A DNA stretch of 35,532 nucleotides from Catalimonadaceae bacterium JC749 (GTDB lineage Bacteria; Bacteroidota; Bacteroidia; Cytophagales; Cyclobacteriaceae), in contig JAJNNC010000025.1 in the NCBI GenBank assembly GCA_021730635.1, positions 1-35,532 of the forward strand, written 5' to 3'. The notes under the pieces are model-generated. The model did no database searches. It was not told the origin of the DNA and worked only from the letters and a program-made list of their open reading frames with translations. Positions 1,583-10,775 of this stretch are shown here, in pieces (the first letter of the stretch is position 1; each line of letters opens with the position of its first letter). A program made the position numbers and the translations under genes.

Positions 1583-2080
1583 ATGTCAGAGGAGCAACTA
1601 CCAAGTATTACAGAGTTATTGCAGGATGAGTTGCTGGATCTTTACAGTGCAGAAATCCAACTGCTGGAAACCCTGTCTGAGCTGTCAAAGGCTACCCGTT
1701 GTCATAGACTAAATGCTATATGGGATACAGAGCTGCAGGAAACCGAAATACGAAAAAACAGGCTGGAGCAAATTGGTCAGTTATTACTGTGCGACATGAA
1801 AGGCAGGCTTTGTCTGCCCATGAAGCAACGCCTTGAGGAAGCAAACGAAGTGATAAAAGGTAGCCTGCAAGCTCAGGAGACTGCTTTTACCGCCATTCTA
1901 CAGGAGATAGCGCATTATACCATTGCAGGATATTGTACGGCGTATCATTTTGCTGAAATATTGGGCTACCCGGAGGTATCTCAACTTTTGTCAGAAACTA
2001 TACAGGAGGTATTACAAATTGATGCTTCAGGCCAAGACATCAATAAAGGAAATATTCGTTCGGAGATGTTGTATGTATAA
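1583..2080 (+). CDS. DUF892 (YciE/YciF-like) ferritin-like protein
   Basis: A 165-residue all-helical protein matching the DUF892/YciE-YciF ferritin-like family. Diagnostic segments are LLQDELLDLYSAEIQLLETL (residues 12-31), LQETEIRKNRLEQIG (51-65), the HYTIAGY helix (111-117) and the FAEILGYPEVSQLLSET helix (123-139). Glu24, the 53-55 acidic cluster, His111 and Glu138 sit where the four-helix bundle would bind a di-metal centre. Family members are linked to stress responses; the biochemical role is not settled. I chose the ATG at 1583 because the domain begins directly after it; an in-frame ATG at 1532 would add 17 residues that do not look like family sequence. The C-terminus (INKGNIRSEMLYV) departs from the usual ending. 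It appears monocistronic. Confidence 0.8.
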   Translation: MSEEQLPSITELLQDELLDLYSAEIQLLETLSELSKATRCHRLNAIWDTELQETEIRKNRLEQIGQLLLCDMKGRLCLPMKQRLEEANEVIKGSLQAQETAFTAILQEIAHYTIAGYCTAYHFAEILGYPEVSQLLSETIQEVLQIDASGQDINKGNIRSEMLYV

Positions 2081-2271
2081 TAAAGTAAGGCTTTTCCAAA
2101 ATGCCGGAACTAGAACCATAGTGATCATAGTGAACTCCATTTTGATCTAAATTAATTGGTGATGTTGAACATACCGGTTTTTGGATTAGCCTTTCTCCTT
2201 ACTGGATCAGCTTATAGGTTTTAGAGCACTTATACACACTTTGTAAAACTGATTGATAATTAAACTACTCA

Positions 2272-2523
2272 ATGATCACAGAATCTACTTTCAATCGATT
2301 TTCTCCCGAACAAAAAGCTACCCTGGTTGACTCCTGTGGAACATATCTTGCCACAAGGTATACCCAATTATATAAGGTAGAATTGTATATTCTAGACGGG
2401 ATATACGTAGAGGTTTGGCGTTCTTTTGCTTTATTTGGCAAATTCAGATCAAAAATCAAACCTGTAGCGGCTTCTATGAAGTTGCTTGAGAAGTATGTGA
2501 AATCTATTGAGCTTGATATTTAG
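2272..2523 (+). CDS. Small conserved-looking hypothetical protein
   Basis: An 83-residue soluble protein that I cannot assign to a named family. It starts at an ATG, has no signal peptide or membrane segment, and its composition is protein-like: an N-terminal helix-like part (FSPEQKATLVDSCGTYLATRY), an alternating hydrophobic stretch (YKVELYILDGIYVEVWR) suggesting beta strands, and a basic helical C-terminus. The layout recalls small uncharacterised Bacteroidota proteins in which a short helix precedes a two-strand 'leucine/tyrosine-rich' hairpin. An opposing ORF at 2265-2459 is less protein-like, so I prefer this strand. It lies about 190 bases after the DUF892 gene on the same strand; co-transcription is possible but not shown. 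Confidence 0.5.
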   Translation: MITESTFNRFSPEQKATLVDSCGTYLATRYTQLYKVELYILDGIYVEVWRSFALFGKFRSKIKPVAASMKLLEKYVKSIELDI

Positions 2524-2659
2524 TGGGTTTTCAGAGATCGAGAATCTCGGCTTATATGCAGGCTTCCGGCTGTCTCCCCGGTTCCTGAAAGTTTACTTTG
2601 CAGAATGACTCATCCTTTTTGGAGACCGGGCCTATGCGGCCCAACCACGTTGGCTGCCG

Positions 2660-2735
2660 GTCTGGGCGACCCCGTCTGGGCGACCCCGTCTGGGCGACCC
2701 CCAGTGGAGCTGCCGGTCTGGGCGACCCCGTCTGG
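2660..2735. repeat. 14-bp GC-rich tandem repeat
   Basis: The unit GTCTGGGCGACCCC occurs at 2660-2673, 2674-2687 and 2688-2701. A 14-base divergent unit follows (CAGTGGAGCTGCCG, 2702-2715), then another exact copy at 2716-2729 and a partial copy at 2730-2735. The larger string CTGCCG plus the repeat recurs exactly 56 bases apart (2654 and 2710), four unit lengths, so the divergent unit keeps the register. The tract is much richer in G+C than its surroundings. A frame running through it (2598-2885) encodes only repeat-derived, low-complexity peptide and is not called as a gene. Confidence 0.85.
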
Positions 2736-2780
2736 AGGATAGCATTTATGACTATTGATTGCTTGTCTTTATGCGATAAA

Positions 2781-2820
2781 ACACCTGAGGACCTGAAAAA
2801 AAGTTCAGGGGTACAGGTGT
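2781..2820. promoter_or_regulatory. Imperfect hairpin upstream of the HU/DUF4469 gene
   Basis: A 40-base inverted repeat with two paired blocks: ACACCTG (2781-2787) with CAGGTGT (2814-2820), and CCTGAA (2791-2796, overlapping the A run) with TTCAGG (2804-2809). An A-rich loop lies between the inner arms. It sits about 95 bases before the ATG of the DNA-binding protein gene. There is no T run, so it is not a convincing terminator; an RNA structure in the leader or an operator is possible. Confidence 0.35.
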
Positions 2821-2915
2821 ACTGTTTTGGGAGTAAAACATTGGCTTCCTTTTTCGTCGCAATCTATTTTGGCGCTGTAAATTGATTGTTAATTCAAAAC
2901 AGCAGTGCAAAGATT

Positions 2916-3605
2916 ATGAACAAGTTGGAATACTATCTCAAAGACAATCCTCTTACACCGGACCCTACAGATTTCTGTGCGGTAGTGCAGCATGGCAAAC
3001 CGGTAGATGACCAGGAACTGGCAGACATGATTCTCTACCGTAGTACAGGGGTGGCTAAATCAGATATCATCCGCATTATAGAAGAGATGAAGATAGCGCT
3101 GAGTCACTTTCTGGTGAATGGCCGTAGCCTGAATACTTCTCTCTTTAATGCCTCCTTTAGCATACAGGGCGTGTTTACCGATGAGGAAGATCGTTTTGAT
3201 CCTGCCCGCCATACCTTAAGTCTCAATGTGAAACCCGGGATAGGACTGAAAGATACCGCAGGTCAGGTCAGCCTGGCGAAAGCCACGCCACCGGTGACGA
3301 ACCCTATTCTCAACAGCTTTACAGATACGGAGAGCGGCACTAAAAACGCACAGATAACACCCGGCGCACCGGGAAAGCTCAATGGCAAAGGCCTTAAATT
3401 TGATCAGGAAGACCCATTACAGGGCGTCTTTTTTATCAACGAGGCTAATAACAGAGAGTACAAGGTAGACAAATTTGTGGAGTGCCATCCTTCCAAGCTG
3501 ATCTTCAAAATACCGACCGGCATGGCGAAGAGTACCTACCGACTGGAAGTGCGCAAAGAAGCGGAAAAATCAGGTCGACTGACAGCCATTTTGCAGGTAG
3601 CGTAA
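2916..3605 (+). CDS. HU-like DNA-binding protein with DUF4469 C-terminal domain
   Basis: A 229-residue protein of the Bacteroidota HU-family 'DNA-binding domain-containing' type. Residues 1 to about 125 form the divergent HU/IHF-like domain. Its signature is NKLEYYLKDNPLTPDPTDF at the N-terminus, then a STGVAKSDIIRIIEE helix and the NTSLFNASFSIQGVF strand pair. Residues about 130-225 match the DUF4469 Ig-like C-terminal domain (NPILNSFTDTES, LNGKGLKFD, GVFFINE, LIFKIPTG). Such proteins are thought to bind DNA, but their role is poorly known. The ATG at 2916 is chosen because family sequence begins exactly there. A strong terminator follows the stop, so it is a single-gene unit. It lies between two unusual repeat arrays. 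Confidence 0.85.
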   Translation: MNKLEYYLKDNPLTPDPTDFCAVVQHGKPVDDQELADMILYRSTGVAKSDIIRIIEEMKIALSHFLVNGRSLNTSLFNASFSIQGVFTDEEDRFDPARHTLSLNVKPGIGLKDTAGQVSLAKATPPVTNPILNSFTDTESGTKNAQITPGAPGKLNGKGLKFDQEDPLQGVFFINEANNREYKVDKFVECHPSKLIFKIPTGMAKSTYRLEVRKEAEKSGRLTAILQVA

Positions 3606-3637
3606 TAAGTTTTGCCAACCAAAACTATGGCGTATAG

Positions 3638-3663
3638 GCTCTCCCCCAGGGAGGGCTTTTTTT
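3638..3663 (+). terminator. Rho-independent terminator of the HU/DUF4469 gene
   Basis: Stem GCTCTCCC (3638-3645) pairs with GGGAGGGC (3649-3656) with one G-T wobble across a CCA loop, followed by seven T at 3657-3663. It lies 33 bases after the stop codon. Confidence 0.8.
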
Positions 3664-3696
3664 GTGAAAACCGGTCTGAATAGCTACCTTATTTTT

Positions 3697-3913
3697 CATT
3701 CTTATGGTTTCCTGTTTTTCATTAGAATGATTTTCCGTTTTTCATTCTAATACTTTTTTGATTTTCATTAGAATGGTTTTCTGATTTTCATTCGAATGCT
3801 TTGCACCAAACCATTCGAATGGCACGCACCCTTTCATTAGAATGGCAACCACCTTCTCATTCTAATGATAACCTCCTTCTCATTGTAATGCTTTGTACTC
3901 TACCCTTTCTAAG
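3697..3913. repeat. Ten-unit 23-bp periodic array with a CATT-NN-AATG palindromic core
   Basis: A 10-base palindrome-like core recurs with an exact 23-base period, starting at 3697, 3720, 3743, 3766, 3789, 3812, 3835, 3858, 3881 and (degenerate) 3904. The cores read CATTCTTATG, CATTAGAATG, CATTCTAATA, CATTAGAATG, CATTCGAATG, CATTCGAATG, CATTAGAATG, CATTCTAATG, CATTGTAATG and CCTTTCTAAG. The CATT and AATG arms are conserved while the central dinucleotide changes. The 13-base inter-core segments drift from T-rich (units 1-4) to A/C-rich (units 5-10), so the cores are better kept than the spacers. The array begins 33 bases after the preceding terminator and lies in a gene-free region. The period of 23 breaks codon frame, which argues against coding. 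Confidence 0.9.
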
Positions 3914-4267
3914 GGCAAACACCTGGTATAGATTGGGTTTATCATTCTGAGAGTTAATACGCTTTACACCAAATTAGTTAAACAGTAGTTTATAACTTAA
4001 TTTTTTTACAAGGCGATTAGTAGCAAATCAAAAACCCTAAAAGAGCCTGTTTTATGATTGTTTTGATACTTTTCCAATCGATGAAAAGTATCCAAAACTC
4101 TTGGAGTTGCACTCCGCGACAAAATATCATTCCTCCCACATACCATTCACACCCTCAACTCCGTTGGGGCCACGATTTTGCCCAGGCTCACGCTTCTTTA
4201 TTCATGCACTTCATAAACCTAAATGGTATTACAAGGGGTGTAAGTTTAGAACAACAAACCCTCTTTG

Positions 4268-4435
4268 ACTGTCATTCCGGCAGTGTAAATACTCTGGGGA
4301 ACTACCCTAGTGGAACTAGAGGCATCTTTGCCATCCCTACCATTGCTTGTTATGGGTAACAGAGCCTCCAAGGATCGATGAAGAATCTACTTTATTGGTT
4401 AGCAATAAGACTGCTCCTTTCGTCGGAATGACAGT
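4268..4435. repeat. 168-bp segment bounded by a 12-bp inverted repeat (MITE-like)
   Basis: ACTGTCATTCCG (4268-4279) is matched exactly in inverse by CGGAATGACAGT (4424-4435). Read on the minus strand the element begins TGTCATTCCGACGAAAGGAG, a type of sequence that I recall as commonly dispersed between genes in Bacteroidota. It encodes no transposase and no target duplication is obvious, so it could be a miniature non-autonomous element or a dispersed intergenic repeat. Copy number cannot be judged here. Confidence 0.45.
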
Positions 4436-4536
4436 ACAAGTGACTATATGATGCCAAACATGCCACACTTGCAACAGTTGCTTCAGATGTTCTCTCTTGG
4501 AATAATAAACAAAGGTAGAAAGTATCCTCCCTAATT

Positions 4537-4975
4537 TTGTCTAAAACTGTGCGTGGGGCCCCCAAAATGCGCGGTCATCCTTGGCTGGTGCGTTTGGAAG
4601 GCCTTGGCACGCGTTGGCTTTGTGCGAAAGTAGCAAGGGATGACTTTTTTGGGCGTCTTTTTCTTTTGTTACTTTTCTTTTGGATGGGCAAAAGAAAAGT
4701 TAGAGCTAGTTTAAAAATTTGGCATTGTACATCCTAGCCAACATGAAATGTTGTTGTTTAATATTGCTTTACTGCTTTGTTCATTTTTTTCTTGATCCGG
4801 CGAGGACCGCAAAAAAACGAACGGCATCGGGAGTCGCCACTCCGGCCGCCGCCAAAAAAGTCAATCGGACCGCCGAAGCGGAAAATTTAAAGCTTCCTTA
4901 CACTTAGCTAACGCACCCTCGCTAAATTTTCGCCCAACGCTCCAAAAAACCTTCATTTTTAACATTTGAACATAC
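4537..4975. repeat. Probable dispersed non-coding repeat with a 12-bp hairpin
   Basis: This stretch is compositionally mixed. A GC-rich part (4545-4630) is followed by a T-rich part with a perfect hairpin: ACTTTTCTTTTG at 4671-4682 and its inverse at 4689-4700, with a 6-base loop. Then come a lysine/alanine-codon-rich part (4795-4880) and a tail rich in GCTAA/GCTCC words. Short open frames across it (4537-4737, 4719-4907) give peptides such as RLFLLLLFFWMGKRK that look like translations of a repeat rather than proteins. I judge it to be a dispersed intergenic sequence; this needs genome-wide copies to confirm. Confidence 0.35.
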
Positions 4976-5189
4976 CCTTGTATGTACACGACTGCTTTAT
5001 TCTAATACCTTTTTACACTGAATGAATAAACGAATCACCCTTCCTGCCTGTAAGAAATCAACCGCATAGGGTAAATTACACGCCTAAAGGAGTAAAGCAC
5101 CGGGTAGGGCAGCACACTGTAAGATGAACAGAATTTCTTCCGGTTCCCCTATCCTTATCAACAGGCCATGCAGGCTCACTCAAAAAATA

Positions 5190-8100
5190 TCAGCTAAGCT
5201 GTTTCAAATGCTCTTCCAGGGAAGCGATCACCTGTTTGATGCTGATGTCCACTTGTTGCCGAACCTCTTCAATCTGTGCTTGCGGGGCTTTTTCCCTGAC
5301 CAAAGCATGACCCTGTTCCAGTAAAGCTTTCAGCTCCTGCAAAGACAGCATATCCAGAAGTACATGGGCTTTATGGATCATATTGCCGAGGGCTTCTTCA
5401 TCCTGCTTAGCCATCGCCGTGGCTACCTCCTGTTGCATGATGTGTAAATCACGGATGCTTTTCTCATAAAATACTTTCAGCCGCTCCTTATCCTTGAAAA
5501 ACTCCACAACTTTGTGAATATCCACAGTAGAAGCAGCAGATACCGCGGCATGGTTATGCGTCGGATTTCCCGCTGGCACCTCAGCCGATGGTTTCTTCTT
5601 TCTTCCGCTGGCATAACGGATCAGCTTTTGCCGTAAATCAGTCGGGTCTACGGGTTTGGTGATTATATCGGTAAAGAGAGTCGCTTCCTGATGTTTCTCT
5701 ACTTCATGCGTTGTGTCGGCGGTCAGGGCGATAATGGGCACCTTTTTGTAGCCTTTTAAAGCTCTGATCTCCTTGGCAGCCTCGTAGCCATCCATGAGAG
5801 GCATACGTACATCCATCAGGATGAGGTCGTAGTTTGTTTGCTGAGCCATAACTACGGCTTGTTTACCATCAGCAGCTTCATCAGGTGTTAATGTCCACCA
5901 TTCTTGCAGGAATTGTTTGACCACCATGCGGTTAATATCCACATCTTCTACTAGCAACAGCCTCAATTGGGGCATGGCCGCTTCATTTTCCTGGTGAGTT
6001 GCCATATCTGCCAAAGAAGTAGCAGTGGCTGAACTCTCTTTTACAGGCAGCGTAAAAAAGAAACGAGTACCTTTCCCTACCTTACTTTCCACGGCTATCT
6101 GGCTGCCCATCAGCTCCAATAATAGCTTGGTAATGGTTAAACCCAATCCGGTACCGCCATATTGCCTCACGGTAGAGAGGTCTGCCTGGGTAAAGGCATC
6201 AAAGATATCAGGTAGTTTATCCTCCGGGATGCCAATGCCTGTATCTGTCACGGAGAAATCTACCCATAGCCTATCTCCTTCCTGGCGGTTGAGGGAGGCT
6301 TCTACCGTGACCTGCCCCTGATGCGTAAACTTCAGGGCATTGCTGATCAGGTTATTCAGCACCTGAGAAAGCCTCAACTGATCGGTACGTATGACAGCAG
6401 GTAGGGCTTCGTCTATATCAAACACAAGTTGATTATCTTTCTCTTTCGCAACAGACTGATAGGTCTTCTGTAGGCTATTCAGGAGCACAGGGAGGTTCAC
6501 TTCCGTTTCTTCTATGCTCACTTTGCCTACCTGTAGCTTACTAAAGTCCAGAATGTCGTTGACCAGCATCATCAGGTTCTGGGAAGAGAACATCAAGGAC
6601 TGCAGGTTTTCCTGCTGGTCGGCTCTGGGGTCTCTTTGCAACAGCAGATGCGATAAGCCGATCACGGCATTGAGAGGCGTACGTATCTCATGGCTCATAT
6701 GGGCCAGGAAATCTTCCTTCGCCTTGGCCGATTGTTCGGCCTGTTCTTTGGCCTGCCTGAGATCCTCTTCCATCTGCACCCTTTCCGTATGATCGCGCAT
6801 GATCTTCAGAAAGCCACGTACATTGCCATCTCGAAGGGGCATGGTAACCCCGCTGCCCCAGAAGCGGCTCCCATCTTTACGCACATGCCACCGCTCATTG
6901 TCGGCACGGCTTTGTTCTTTGGCTTTTTCCATCTCTTTTTCCGGTATCTGCTGTTCCCTGTCTTCCATCGTAAAGAGAATGTCACCGGGCTGTCCGATGA
7001 TTTCTTCTTTCGTATAGCCAAATATTTGTTCTGCCCCTGTGTTCCAGCCAGTGACCTTTCCCTGCATGTCCATGGTGAAGATGGCATAGTCTATGGCACT
7101 TTCCAGGATCAAACGAAGATGCTCTTCATTCTGACGAATGGCTTCCTCTGCCTGCTTCTGTCCGCTAATGTCAAGCACAAACTCAACCATCTCTTCTTCG
7201 CTGATTTTAAGGCCAGCAAACAAACCCCACCAGCGTGAACCGTCTTTGCGGAAATATTGCTTTTCATAGGGGGTGCTTTGACCTTTCTCCTCAAGCTCTG
7301 CCACCGCCTGCTCAGAAGCCTCATGAAATTCTTCCGGGGTCAGTTCCTGCCAGGTTAGTCCCTCTACCTCCTCATGGCTAAACCCTGCCATGTTTAAGAA
7401 TGCCTGGTTCACTTGTCTGATCCTGAAATCAGCGTCCCAGAAGATGACGCCTACCGTTTCAATGCCGAGTGTTCGCCGTAGTCGTTCCTCACTCTGCCGT
7501 AACTCTTCCTCTGCCTGCTTGCGGTCACTGATATCGAGGCAGTACTCTACGAGGGTACCATCGCCCAGGCTGGCACCGGCAAACAGCATCCAGGAGCGGG
7601 AGCCATCTTTGCGTAGATACTCCTTCTCATAGGGACCGATACGCCCTGTTTCCTCCATTTGCCGTAGCTGCTGCTCACTGACCGCTATATATTCCGGGGG
7701 CGTCAACATTCTCCAGGACAATGTGCCGGATTTGATCTCCTCCCGGGTATAGCCAAACATGTGCAGAAAAGTGTTGTTAGCATCCAGGAGTGTGTCAGAT
7801 GCATCAAAGATCAACACGCCTACCCCCTCAATGTTGACCATCTTCTGCAACCGGGCCTCGCTCTTCCGCAACGTCTCTTCCGATTGCTTCTTCTCCGTGA
7901 TATCGCGGATGCCCAGCAGAACAAGCTGAACTTGATCCAGGCGGCGGGCATTCAGCAGCATCACCCGAAAACCTATATCTTCAAAGTTGTGTGTGACCTC
8001 ATAATCATTGAAGACATGGTTTTCCGGCAATACTTCCTCCAGCAGTTTCTTTAAATCCGGTATGTTCCACTGCCCATTGCCCAGATCGTAAATCCTCTGG

Positions 8101-10775
8101 CCCACCGTTTCATTCTTACGTACCTGGAAGTGGTTGTAGAAAGCCTGATTGGCCGACTGTATACGGAGATTCGGCTTCAGCACGAGAAGGGGCTCATGGA
8201 GCGTATCAATAATGCTCTCGGCATAATCTTTTGCCTCACGCATTTTTTCCTCGGCCTGCTTACGCTCGGTAATATCCACAAAAGTGATGACCACCCCCTC
8301 TATTTTGTCCTCTCCACTACGATAGGGCAGCACCCGTGTCAGGTACCAATGGTTTTCTTCATCCTTCACTTCCCGCTCTACGGGTACCAGTTTATCGAGT
8401 ACTTTTTGCGCATCGCTGATGAGTTCATCATAGCCCAGGCGGTGGGTGATGTCAGAGAGGGGGCGGCCCCGGTCTACCACACGGACATTGAAGAGCTCTC
8501 CCAACCTTGGGGTGAACCGCAGGATACGTAAATGCCGGTCCAGAAACAGGGTGGCAATATCCGTGGCTTTCAACAGGTTATTCAGGTCGCTGGAGAGTTG
8601 GGCCAGCTCTTCTACCTTGTGACGGTTTTCCTGGTTAACCGTAGTGAGTTCTTCATTGACACTCTGCAACTCCTCTTTGCTGGTTTCCAGTTCCTCCAGG
8701 GTGGAGCGCAGCTCTTCATTAGCCGACTGCATCTCCTCATTGGAGGCTTTCATCTCTTCCTGGCTGGTTTCATATTCCTCTATAATAGCCTGCAGCCGCT
8801 GTTTGGTCAGCGCCAGTTCGGTTTCCACCTCCCGCAAATTAGTATCTGCTGGTGCGGCCTGTACTTCACCGCTTGCCTTGTTGGAAGACTCCGGTGCCTG
8901 CCACTCCTCAAAGATCACCAGGAAGAAATCCTCATGGTGAGGCAACAGACTGGGATACACTGAAAATATAATGTTATGGTGACCGCCTTCCATCTGAATT
9001 GAGATAGGTTTAGAATGGATGGCAGCGCCATTCTCCCGGGCTGAATGCAACATGCTGCGCAACTCAATACGAAACTCTTCCCGCACCAGCTTGAAGACAC
9101 TGGTAGTAGGCTCACCGCCCGGATGCACCAGGTAACGCCCTACATGCTCAGAGAGGTGTACCACCTGATAATCCGGATTGACCAGCAGGCTGGGCGGTGC
9201 ATAACGCTCTACCATCCGCTGGTGCAATACGCCATAACCCATAGGCTCCCCTCCTGTCATCATTTCTTTTGATTTACCGGGCAACCGGTTACGCATGAGC
9301 GGAAAGACAGGGAGCCGAGGCTCCGGAACAGGCACATTTCGCTTACGGTAGAGGCAATGACCTTTGTCTTCTATGCGGAATAGCTCACTGGTTTCAATGG
9401 TCTCGGAAGTGCCCAGCAAGAGGTATGCTCCTGTATTGAGGGAGTAATGAAACAGGTCTATGATATCTTTCTGTATCTCCCGCTGCAGATAGATCATCAC
9501 ATTGCGGCAGGCAATGAGATCCACTTTAGAAAAGGGAGGATCGCTCATCAGGTTGTGAGGGGTGAAGATCACTGTCTCCCGCACTTCCTTACGCACACGG
9601 AAGCTGCTGTCTTCCTTGACAAAAAAGCGCCTGAGTCGCTCCGGACTTATATCCGTTTCTATGTCGCCCGGGTAGATACCATCTCTGGCTTTCTGCAGGG
9701 AATGCTCATGCAGATCGCTGGCAAAAACCTGGATGGTGGGGGGTGCCTCATGCCTGGCCGCCTCTTCCAGCAGCAGGATGGCCAGGGAGTAAGCTTCTTC
9801 CCCGGTAGCACAACCTACCGACCAAACCCGCACACTATCCCGGGAACCTTTCTCTTTGAAAAGTTCAGGGATGACATGCTGCTCCAGCTTGTGGAATACC
9901 TCAGTATCCCTGAAGAAGCTGGTTACCGTGATGAGAAAGTCATCAGAGAGCGCCTGTACCTCTTCGGGCCTTTCCCGCAGCAGACCAAGATAATCCTCCA
10001 GCTTTTCGATGTGGTTGAGTTGCATTCTGCGCTGCAGACGGCGCATAATGGTAGAGCGTTTATAACGGCTAAAGTCTCTGGCCGTGCGGGCTCGCACCTG
10101 CGTCAGTATTTTCTGCAGCAGATACCGCTCTTCATCCTCTATATCTTTACCCTCCCGGAGTGATGGAATCTGAGGCTCCGTCTGAATAAAGCGCAGGATA
10201 TGGGCAGGCATCTCTTCCAGCGACAGCACCCAATCTACCATCCCGGTGGCGATAGCACTTTGCGGCATGCCATCATATTCTGCTTCCAAAGGATCTTGCA
10301 CAATGATGAGACCTCCTTTGCCTTTGATCTCCTTGATGCCCAGCGTGCCATCAGAACCGGTACCCGTCAGGATAATACCAATAGCACTGCCATCGTGGGT
10401 AGCAGCCAGGGTACGGAAGAAATGGTCGATAGGGGCCCGGTCACGCCTTCGCTCTTCCAGGTCGGAGAGACGCAGGTGGGTATCGATGGTATTAAGGTTT
10501 CGACCCGGTGGTATGACATACACCTGGTTGGGTTCCAGCTTCATGGTCTCGGTCACCTGCTGCACCGGCATACTGACATGGGGTTGCAGCAGATCAGCCA
10601 GGTGGCTCTCATGCTCCGGAGAGAGATGCACCACAATGACAAAGGCCATTCCACTGTCGTCCGGCATATGAGAGAAAAAAGTTTTCAGGGCAGCCAACCC
10701 ACCCGCAGAGGCACCAAGGCCCACGACAGTAACAGGTTTTGCTTCTGATTGAGTTTGGTTGTTGATTTCTTCCAT
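5190..10775 (-). CDS. CheB-CheR-multiPAS-hybrid histidine kinase with REC and Hpt
   Basis: A 1861-residue cytoplasmic fusion with no transmembrane segment. Order: CheB methylesterase (about 14-200; Ser23 in GASAGG, His50, Asp142 in TGSDG); CheR methyltransferase (about 215-480; SAM motif SVGCATGEEAYS at 319-330); a PAS-like linker; a long Glu-rich coiled coil (about 640-750); five PAS domains to about 1340, the third and fourth clearly duplicated; HisKA with His1362 (MSHEIRTP); HATPase_c (NLISNALKF, DTGIGIP, GGTGLGL); receiver with phospho-acceptor Asp1655 (LILMDVRMP); and a C-terminal Hpt-like domain (about 1755-1861) with His1801. Kinase, receiver and Hpt together could run a complete internal phosphorelay. 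CheB and CheR lack any chemoreceptor or flagellar neighbour, so their substrate is unknown. The Hpt motif reads HKAH rather than the common HxxK. It is divergent from the second giant kinase, with about 1 kb between. Confidence 0.92.
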   Translation of the reverse strand: MEEINNQTQSEAKPVTVVGLGASAGGLAALKTFFSHMPDDSGMAFVIVVHLSPEHESHLADLLQPHVSMPVQQVTETMKLEPNQVYVIPPGRNLNTIDTHLRLSDLEERRRDRAPIDHFFRTLAATHDGSAIGIILTGTGSDGTLGIKEIKGKGGLIIVQDPLEAEYDGMPQSAIATGMVDWVLSLEEMPAHILRFIQTEPQIPSLREGKDIEDEERYLLQKILTQVRARTARDFSRYKRSTIMRRLQRRMQLNHIEKLEDYLGLLRERPEEVQALSDDFLITVTSFFRDTEVFHKLEQHVIPELFKEKGSRDSVRVWSVGCATGEEAYSLAILLLEEAARHEAPPTIQVFASDLHEHSLQKARDGIYPGDIETDISPERLRRFFVKEDSSFRVRKEVRETVIFTPHNLMSDPPFSKVDLIACRNVMIYLQREIQKDIIDLFHYSLNTGAYLLLGTSETIETSELFRIEDKGHCLYRKRNVPVPEPRLPVFPLMRNRLPGKSKEMMTGGEPMGYGVLHQRMVERYAPPSLLVNPDYQVVHLSEHVGRYLVHPGGEPTTSVFKLVREEFRIELRSMLHSARENGAAIHSKPISIQMEGGHHNIIFSVYPSLLPHHEDFFLVIFEEWQAPESSNKASGEVQAAPADTNLREVETELALTKQRLQAIIEEYETSQEEMKASNEEMQSANEELRSTLEELETSKEELQSVNEELTTVNQENRHKVEELAQLSSDLNNLLKATDIATLFLDRHLRILRFTPRLGELFNVRVVDRGRPLSDITHRLGYDELISDAQKVLDKLVPVEREVKDEENHWYLTRVLPYRSGEDKIEGVVITFVDITERKQAEEKMREAKDYAESIIDTLHEPLLVLKPNLRIQSANQAFYNHFQVRKNETVGQRIYDLGNGQWNIPDLKKLLEEVLPENHVFNDYEVTHNFEDIGFRVMLLNARRLDQVQLVLLGIRDITEKKQSEETLRKSEARLQKMVNIEGVGVLIFDASDTLLDANNTFLHMFGYTREEIKSGTLSWRMLTPPEYIAVSEQQLRQMEETGRIGPYEKEYLRKDGSRSWMLFAGASLGDGTLVEYCLDISDRKQAEEELRQSEERLRRTLGIETVGVIFWDADFRIRQVNQAFLNMAGFSHEEVEGLTWQELTPEEFHEASEQAVAELEEKGQSTPYEKQYFRKDGSRWWGLFAGLKISEEEMVEFVLDISGQKQAEEAIRQNEEHLRLILESAIDYAIFTMDMQGKVTGWNTGAEQIFGYTKEEIIGQPGDILFTMEDREQQIPEKEMEKAKEQSRADNERWHVRKDGSRFWGSGVTMPLRDGNVRGFLKIMRDHTERVQMEEDLRQAKEQAEQSAKAKEDFLAHMSHEIRTPLNAVIGLSHLLLQRDPRADQQENLQSLMFSSQNLMMLVNDILDFSKLQVGKVSIEETEVNLPVLLNSLQKTYQSVAKEKDNQLVFDIDEALPAVIRTDQLRLSQVLNNLISNALKFTHQGQVTVEASLNRQEGDRLWVDFSVTDTGIGIPEDKLPDIFDAFTQADLSTVRQYGGTGLGLTITKLLLELMGSQIAVESKVGKGTRFFFTLPVKESSATATSLADMATHQENEAAMPQLRLLLVEDVDINRMVVKQFLQEWWTLTPDEAADGKQAVVMAQQTNYDLILMDVRMPLMDGYEAAKEIRALKGYKKVPIIALTADTTHEVEKHQEATLFTDIITKPVDPTDLRQKLIRYASGRKKKPSAEVPAGNPTHNHAAVSAASTVDIHKVVEFFKDKERLKVFYEKSIRDLHIMQQEVATAMAKQDEEALGNMIHKAHVLLDMLSLQELKALLEQGHALVREKAPQAQIEEVRQQVDISIKQVIASLEEHLKQLS

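Follow-up and report, generated by a model that had tools for sequence, protein, structure and literature searches.

Bacterial minisatellites are usually regarded as neutral, and the centromeres and iteron arrays of plasmids, of which sopC is an example, are tandem sites bound by a dimeric protein. The BrickBuilt elements of Porphyromonas gingivalis are, according to the portion of their description available to us (PMC4596501), 23-nt intergenic tandem direct repeats in whose unit some sites are conserved and others not; they vary in unit number, are predicted to form long stem-loops and lie at several loci. Strain ATCC 33277 has 19 such loci, and many of these carry leader/tail segments as well as IS5-like terminal inverted repeats of 12 bp. 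The same portion cites the 464/PgRS elements of this species, which are 41-nt repeats, and also 22-nt repeats. Short intergenic palindromes, sometimes reiterated in tandem, are described for the REP/BIME elements and their REP-associated transposases (RAYT) in the accessible part of PMC3733652.

We analysed a window of 35,532 nucleotides (the whole stretch of DNA under study) from the genome of Catalimonadaceae bacterium JC749, hereafter the own genome (G000; an 8.0 Mb assembly in 86 contigs). It contains an intergenic tandem array of short cores, and a second array lies on contig C78 of the same genome. The features needed here are:

2916–3605, forward strand: gene with HU-DNA_bdg (PF14848) and DUF4469 (PF14734) domain matches, adjacent to the array
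3636–3665, forward strand: predicted intrinsic terminator (stem 3636–3658 plus a T run), between the HU/DUF4469 gene and the array
3697–3903, no strand: tandem array of nine 23-bp units, each a 10-bp core of the CATTNNAATG type and a 13-bp spacer
3697–3788, no strand: T-rich sub-block, units W1–W4; the edge preceding it, TTATTTTT, is common to both arrays, and C78 has one such unit
3789–3903, no strand: A/C-rich sub-block, units W5–W9, collinear with units of the C78 array
3904–3913, no strand: doubtful tenth core, CCTTTCTAAG, with three arm mismatches
5190–10775, opposite strand to the HU/DUF4469 gene: large CheB/CheR/PAS histidine kinase gene, the far flank of the intergenic zone

The array comprises seven exact CATTNNAATG cores (starting at 3720, 3766, 3789, 3812, 3835, 3858 and 3881) and two with one arm change. 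All exact cores of the window fall inside it, and their number was reached in 1 of 100 shuffles (mean 1.37). Throughout 3606–5189, nine cores deviate from the motif by no more than one arm base, and every one of them sits in a 23-bp register counted from 3697. A preliminary description had seen ten units of exact 23-bp period; nine indeed follow each other without slip, but the tenth core, CCTTTCTAAG, carries three arm mismatches and is not convincing, and the array is therefore best counted as nine units. TRF reported 3692–3802 with period 23 (score 124) and also period 46 (score 152), and three of its 14 merged rows in 1.64 Mb of the own genome represent the two CATT..AATG arrays. When the TRF consensus units were tested alone (arms of 4–5 bp), neither array scored as palindromic at p ≤ 0.02 (0.155 and 0.025 for the window, 0.25 for C78). 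The central dinucleotides run CT, AG, CT, AG, CG, CG, AG, CT, GT, and are thus as varied as the preliminary description had it, though without the strict alternation it proposed. All spacers are 13 bases long, T-rich in units 1–4 and A/C-rich thereafter; the divergence and shift in composition noted earlier are real, yet the spacers are not free, since 63 of 78 aligned positions are the same, in the same order, in the C78 array.

The zone had correctly been described as gene-free and adjacent to an HU/DUF4469 gene, with the addition that a predicted terminator separates gene and array. Both this gene and the histidine kinase gene face the zone, i.e. they are convergent. Three other repeats were seen nearby: upstream of the HU/DUF4469 gene, 5.4 copies of a 14-bp tandem repeat, GTCTGGGCGACCCC (2660–2735); immediately after the array, on its downstream side (3957–4232), a repeat of some 270 bp that is dispersed, with 17 other matching pieces in the own genome (E ≤ 1e-4, 69–86% identity), some being parts of one copy, and none seen beside the C78 array; and, by eye, a MITE-like stretch at 4270–4433 between TGTCATTCCG and its inverse CGGAATGACA.

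The search for spaced cores that the preliminary description had proposed was productive within the own genome, where it revealed a single further array, inverted, with cores spanning G000:C78:81979-82126, whereas the sampled relatives yielded no true counterpart. Allowing up to two mismatches, 20 forward pair matches were obtained in this genome; the 14 with none or one all lie within the two arrays, and six two-mismatch pairs lie outside them, against three for the control. The C78 array is likewise placed between convergent genes, here a DUF418 gene (without a match in the same-genus genome) and a MauE-like gene. In both cases the array is 3′ of a gene, with its T-rich edge nearer that gene, and the distance from stop codon to first core is 91 bp in the window and 58 bp on C78. 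Another tandem repeat of the own genome, with a 41-bp period and AAAACCGACCGTTTT-like units, was seen at L284:16918-17016 (contig C12).

Window positions 3762–3890 are 88% identical to C78 across 129 bp, and the units pair as W4-V0, W5-V1, W6-V2, W7-V4, W8-V5 and W9-V6 (the last weakly). In these pairs the spacers correspond one to one and their order is kept, the observed score being reached by only 4 of 5000 unit-order shuffles; the array was therefore copied as a block. Outside the repeats, the flanks of the two arrays showed no similarity of note. Unit turnover since the copy was almost nil in the collinear part (one unit difference), and the T-rich units number four in the window against one on C78.

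This block duplication provides an internal control, since after copying the arms stayed and the spacers changed. Across the aligned units, 1 of 48 arm positions, 3 of 12 centre positions and 15 of 78 spacer positions differ (arms versus spacers, Fisher p 0.003), a comparison that draws on a single duplication and on six pairs of units, of which the last is weakly aligned; for the five pairs in which both cores are intact, the counts are 0 of 40 for arms and 9 of 65 for spacers (p 0.011). Within arrays, mean differences per position are 0.056 (window) and 0 (C78) for arms, 0.545 and 0.523 for spacers, and 0.597 and 0.533 for centres. When the 15 units of both arrays are stacked into 23 columns, variability is lowest in the eight columns of the arms (entropy 0–0.35 versus at least 0.57 elsewhere), and spacer length is constant in all units despite the divergence of its letters. 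The earlier statement that arms and spacing are held while the rest drifts is therefore borne out.

In neither array is a change in one arm compensated in the other, and 13 of 16 centres in the two arrays are not self-complementary; it is thus the letters of the arms which are held and not their foldback symmetry. The opposite behaviour was found in an array of a Parabacteroides-like genome (L200:17171-17446), where the two sides of the palindrome co-vary (12 cells; the covariation of 0.370 was matched by 0 of 500 shuffles). If binding is confirmed, the contrast with that array would distinguish two modes by which palindromic repeats are conserved.

Fixed arms and diverged spacers, without symmetry compensation, favour a putative sequence-specific and probably dimeric reader. 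The reading that we prefer, at somewhat less than even confidence, is that a minisatellite has turned into, or has been from the outset, a series of sites read by a putative dimeric sequence-specific DNA-binding protein. On this account the minisatellite, intergenic and private to the lineage, would have a sequence-specific palindromic site in every unit; it would have grown by tandem duplication of the 23-bp unit, and a single block copy would have founded the second locus; the CATT..AATG arms would still be constrained, whereas spacers and central dinucleotide would drift. The constraint would most likely be binding by a symmetric (dimeric) protein on regularly spaced neighbouring sites, and the fixed 23-bp step would presumably matter. 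Against this, a site consisting of 4-bp arms about a centre of two free positions is small, the palindrome test on the consensus units was negative for these arrays, and arm conservation could have another source if duplication were restricted to units with intact cores.

That last possibility is central to the competing view, in which a BrickBuilt-like minisatellite in decay, or a repeat that was once mobile, has no current function and the core survives because duplication uses intact cores. We consider it possible but less probable than the binding array. It has a documented precedent in the 23-nt intergenic minisatellites of P. gingivalis with their conserved and variable parts (PMC4596501, available portion), it agrees with an array private to the own genome among the sampled relatives, and similar arrays in other genomes span everything from complete homogeneity to strong divergence, as repeats of different age would. 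Decay does not by itself account for fixed arms beside diverging spacers, however: the arms stayed fixed after the block copy while spacers changed and unit turnover was almost nil, and the two arrays lack common flanks, as the surroundings of the window array lack BrickBuilt-type ends.

When transcribed, cores of different units might also pair into hairpins that stabilize or end transcripts. The window array (both strands) and the C78 array (one strand folded) do form more stable folds than any of 200 shuffles (z −5.4, −5.3 and −4.2), strong folding that is nevertheless expected of any palindromic repeats. The position of both arrays 3′ of a gene, T-rich edge on that gene's side, would suit such an element, but a predicted terminator already precedes the window array and no Rfam match was found within 2000–5300. 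Neighbouring centres are complementary in five of eight steps in the window array (permutation p 0.027), an excess that the C78 array does not share (3 of 6, p 0.80), and arm changes are never compensated. Such an RNA-level element is accordingly judged unlikely, below both the binding array and the decaying minisatellite.

As one candidate reader, the preliminary description had named the adjacent HU/DUF4469 protein, for which adjacency is the argument; this we find scarcely credible, since the C78 array, flanked by the DUF418 and MauE-like genes, has no such neighbour, and the own genome contains five HU/DUF4469-like matches for two arrays while the same-genus genome G001 contains eleven and no array. 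Cores with centres AG, CT or CG number 14 in 1.64 Mb of the own genome, 12 of them within the two arrays; because such cores are so rare outside (2 of 14), a regulon is unlikely. An ori/ter-type organizing site was rejected for the C78 array, which lies inside a 400-kb stretch with negative GC skew throughout, away from any skew switch; the broader suggestion of a chromosome-organizing site is weakened by this and by there being only two loci, but may still apply.

Within its genus, the array was found in the own genome only, of two genomes, G001 having no exact-core pair at 21–25 bp. The order search covered 390 genomes and gave a nucleotide match (E ≤ 0.001) in 14, with arrays only at the two places in G000; the weak matches in the 13 others were all inspected and none has periodic cores. 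Three cores occurred in 1 of 395 genomes of the phylum, again the own genome (control 0). Among 295 genomes of the family, a CATT pair was present in 18 and the reversed palindrome GTAANNTTAC, used as control, in 31, the own genome belonging to both sets; of the 17 others with a CATT pair, G139 has a nearly homogeneous 24-bp minisatellite and the rest one exact pair only. The array thus appears to be lineage-private among the sampled relatives. The preliminary description would have been undermined by absence from close relatives combined with random core changes; the absence is found, both in the same-genus genome and in the sampled relatives, and the random core changes are not.

Two observations were made in passing on these genomes. 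A Flammeovirgaceae MAG of the window's family (L055, L079 and L126; G139 by matching coordinates) has 24-bp arrays, with a GGTCGGTGACAACACCGACC palindrome adjoining that of L126, and at L060 (G061:C20:481407-481440) two CATT cores 24 bp apart stand just 5′ of a frame that looks ParA-like by eye.

Triple cores are uncommon elsewhere: in genome_contigs, which spans 84,980 species, a scan whose pattern required three of them at a 21–25 bp step gave 58 stretches, 42 of them Bacteroidota by title. Arrays within one genome often have a common centre and step (G295, G300; exceptions G296, G298 and G301), whereas centres, steps and spacers differ from genome to genome, spacer divergence ranging from 0 to 0.83; gene orientation at 59 loci was mixed and followed no rule. 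Of the surveyed arrays in which four or more exact cores keep a constant step, none has spacers as divergent as those of the window array (0.55). Arrays elsewhere were picked by their exact cores and are therefore silent on arm constraint. The kind of array thus recurs without its core being a common recognition site. CATTNNAATG as a phylum-wide recognition site was rejected, the GTAANNTTAC control being at least as common in the family and three cores occurring, among the 395 phylum genomes, in the own genome alone.

Several of the surveyed sequences have repeats of their own interest. In G295, a Parabacteroides-like MAG (L194–L213, 395 kb), we counted 54 merged tandem arrays, or 137 per Mb versus 8.6 per Mb in the own-genome sample; 34 of the 54 have period 41–42 and ten have period 21–24, units look different between loci by eye, 18 of the 54 consensus units score as palindromic (p ≤ 0.02), and the arms co-vary in the one array tested. 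Arrays embedded in longer dispersed repeats (about 550–720 bp aligned) were seen in G296 (L082, L089, L121, L132) and G297 (L088, L106). Thirteen IMG/VR viral contigs (L135–L147) carry 23–24-bp or similar CATTNNAATG arrays; ten of these contigs appear to form a single group of relatives whose flanks are AT-rich.

Spread of REP-like palindromes by a RAYT was also weighed. One 24-bp array (L055) directly follows a frame with a sub-threshold Y1_Tnp match (22.4 versus 23 bits), and G000 has two weak Y1_Tnp matches. Such a match was found in only 7 of 12 array-bearing genomes tested, however, and the own genome has only two loci and few single cores, so that we regard this origin as very improbable. 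As a general source of the arrays, RAYT/REP was rejected on the five genomes without a Y1_Tnp match.

A wider form of the preferred binding-array reading is that the two arrays are landing strips for a putative dimeric protein that binds adjacent 10-bp sites at a fixed 23-bp step (a lineage-private chromosomal site for organizing, tethering or silencing), and that Bacteroidota repeatedly evolve such strips from minisatellites, each lineage with its own core. This we hold to be doubtful. Binding, if confirmed, would illustrate a route from tandem repeats to arrays on which proteins dock.

Among the matches listed, the open-licence literature does not name such an array, nor does any listed title among the papers with one of six core strings concern a bacterial repeat; the available parts of PMC8040213, PMC13155455 and PMC5771137 do not describe such arrays.

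Compared with known systems, the locus differs from sopC-type arrays in that a replication or partition gene stands directly beside neither array and no similar plasmid or phage record was found; the earlier idea of a plasmid-iteron-like array consequently finds no support. It has in common with REP/BIME elements, as described in the accessible part of PMC3733652, short intergenic palindromes in tandem, and is set apart by two arrays in place of dispersed copies, a strict 23-bp step and no constant RAYT dependence. The 464/PgRS and 22-nt repeats, to judge from their citation in the available portion of PMC4596501, are likewise fixed-step tandem intergenic repeats of Bacteroidota, but their units of 41 nt and 22 nt distinguish them by description. 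Matches in the window to 12-bp terminal inverted repeats of the BrickBuilt type (GAGACCTTTGCA, two mismatches allowed) numbered three (3.5 would be expected), and all of them lie more than 5 kb from the array; given this and the lack of common flanks, membership of BrickBuilt is not claimed. The BrickBuilt minisatellite/MITE is nonetheless, by its description in that same portion, the nearest described system: both consist of tandem 23-nt direct repeats in intergenic DNA, whereas the present arrays occupy two loci, share repeats only, with no common leader or tail, and have strongly diverged spacers about a fixed palindromic core. The array is thus best placed as a variant of the Bacteroidota minisatellite, with a plausible but unproven function as a binding array.
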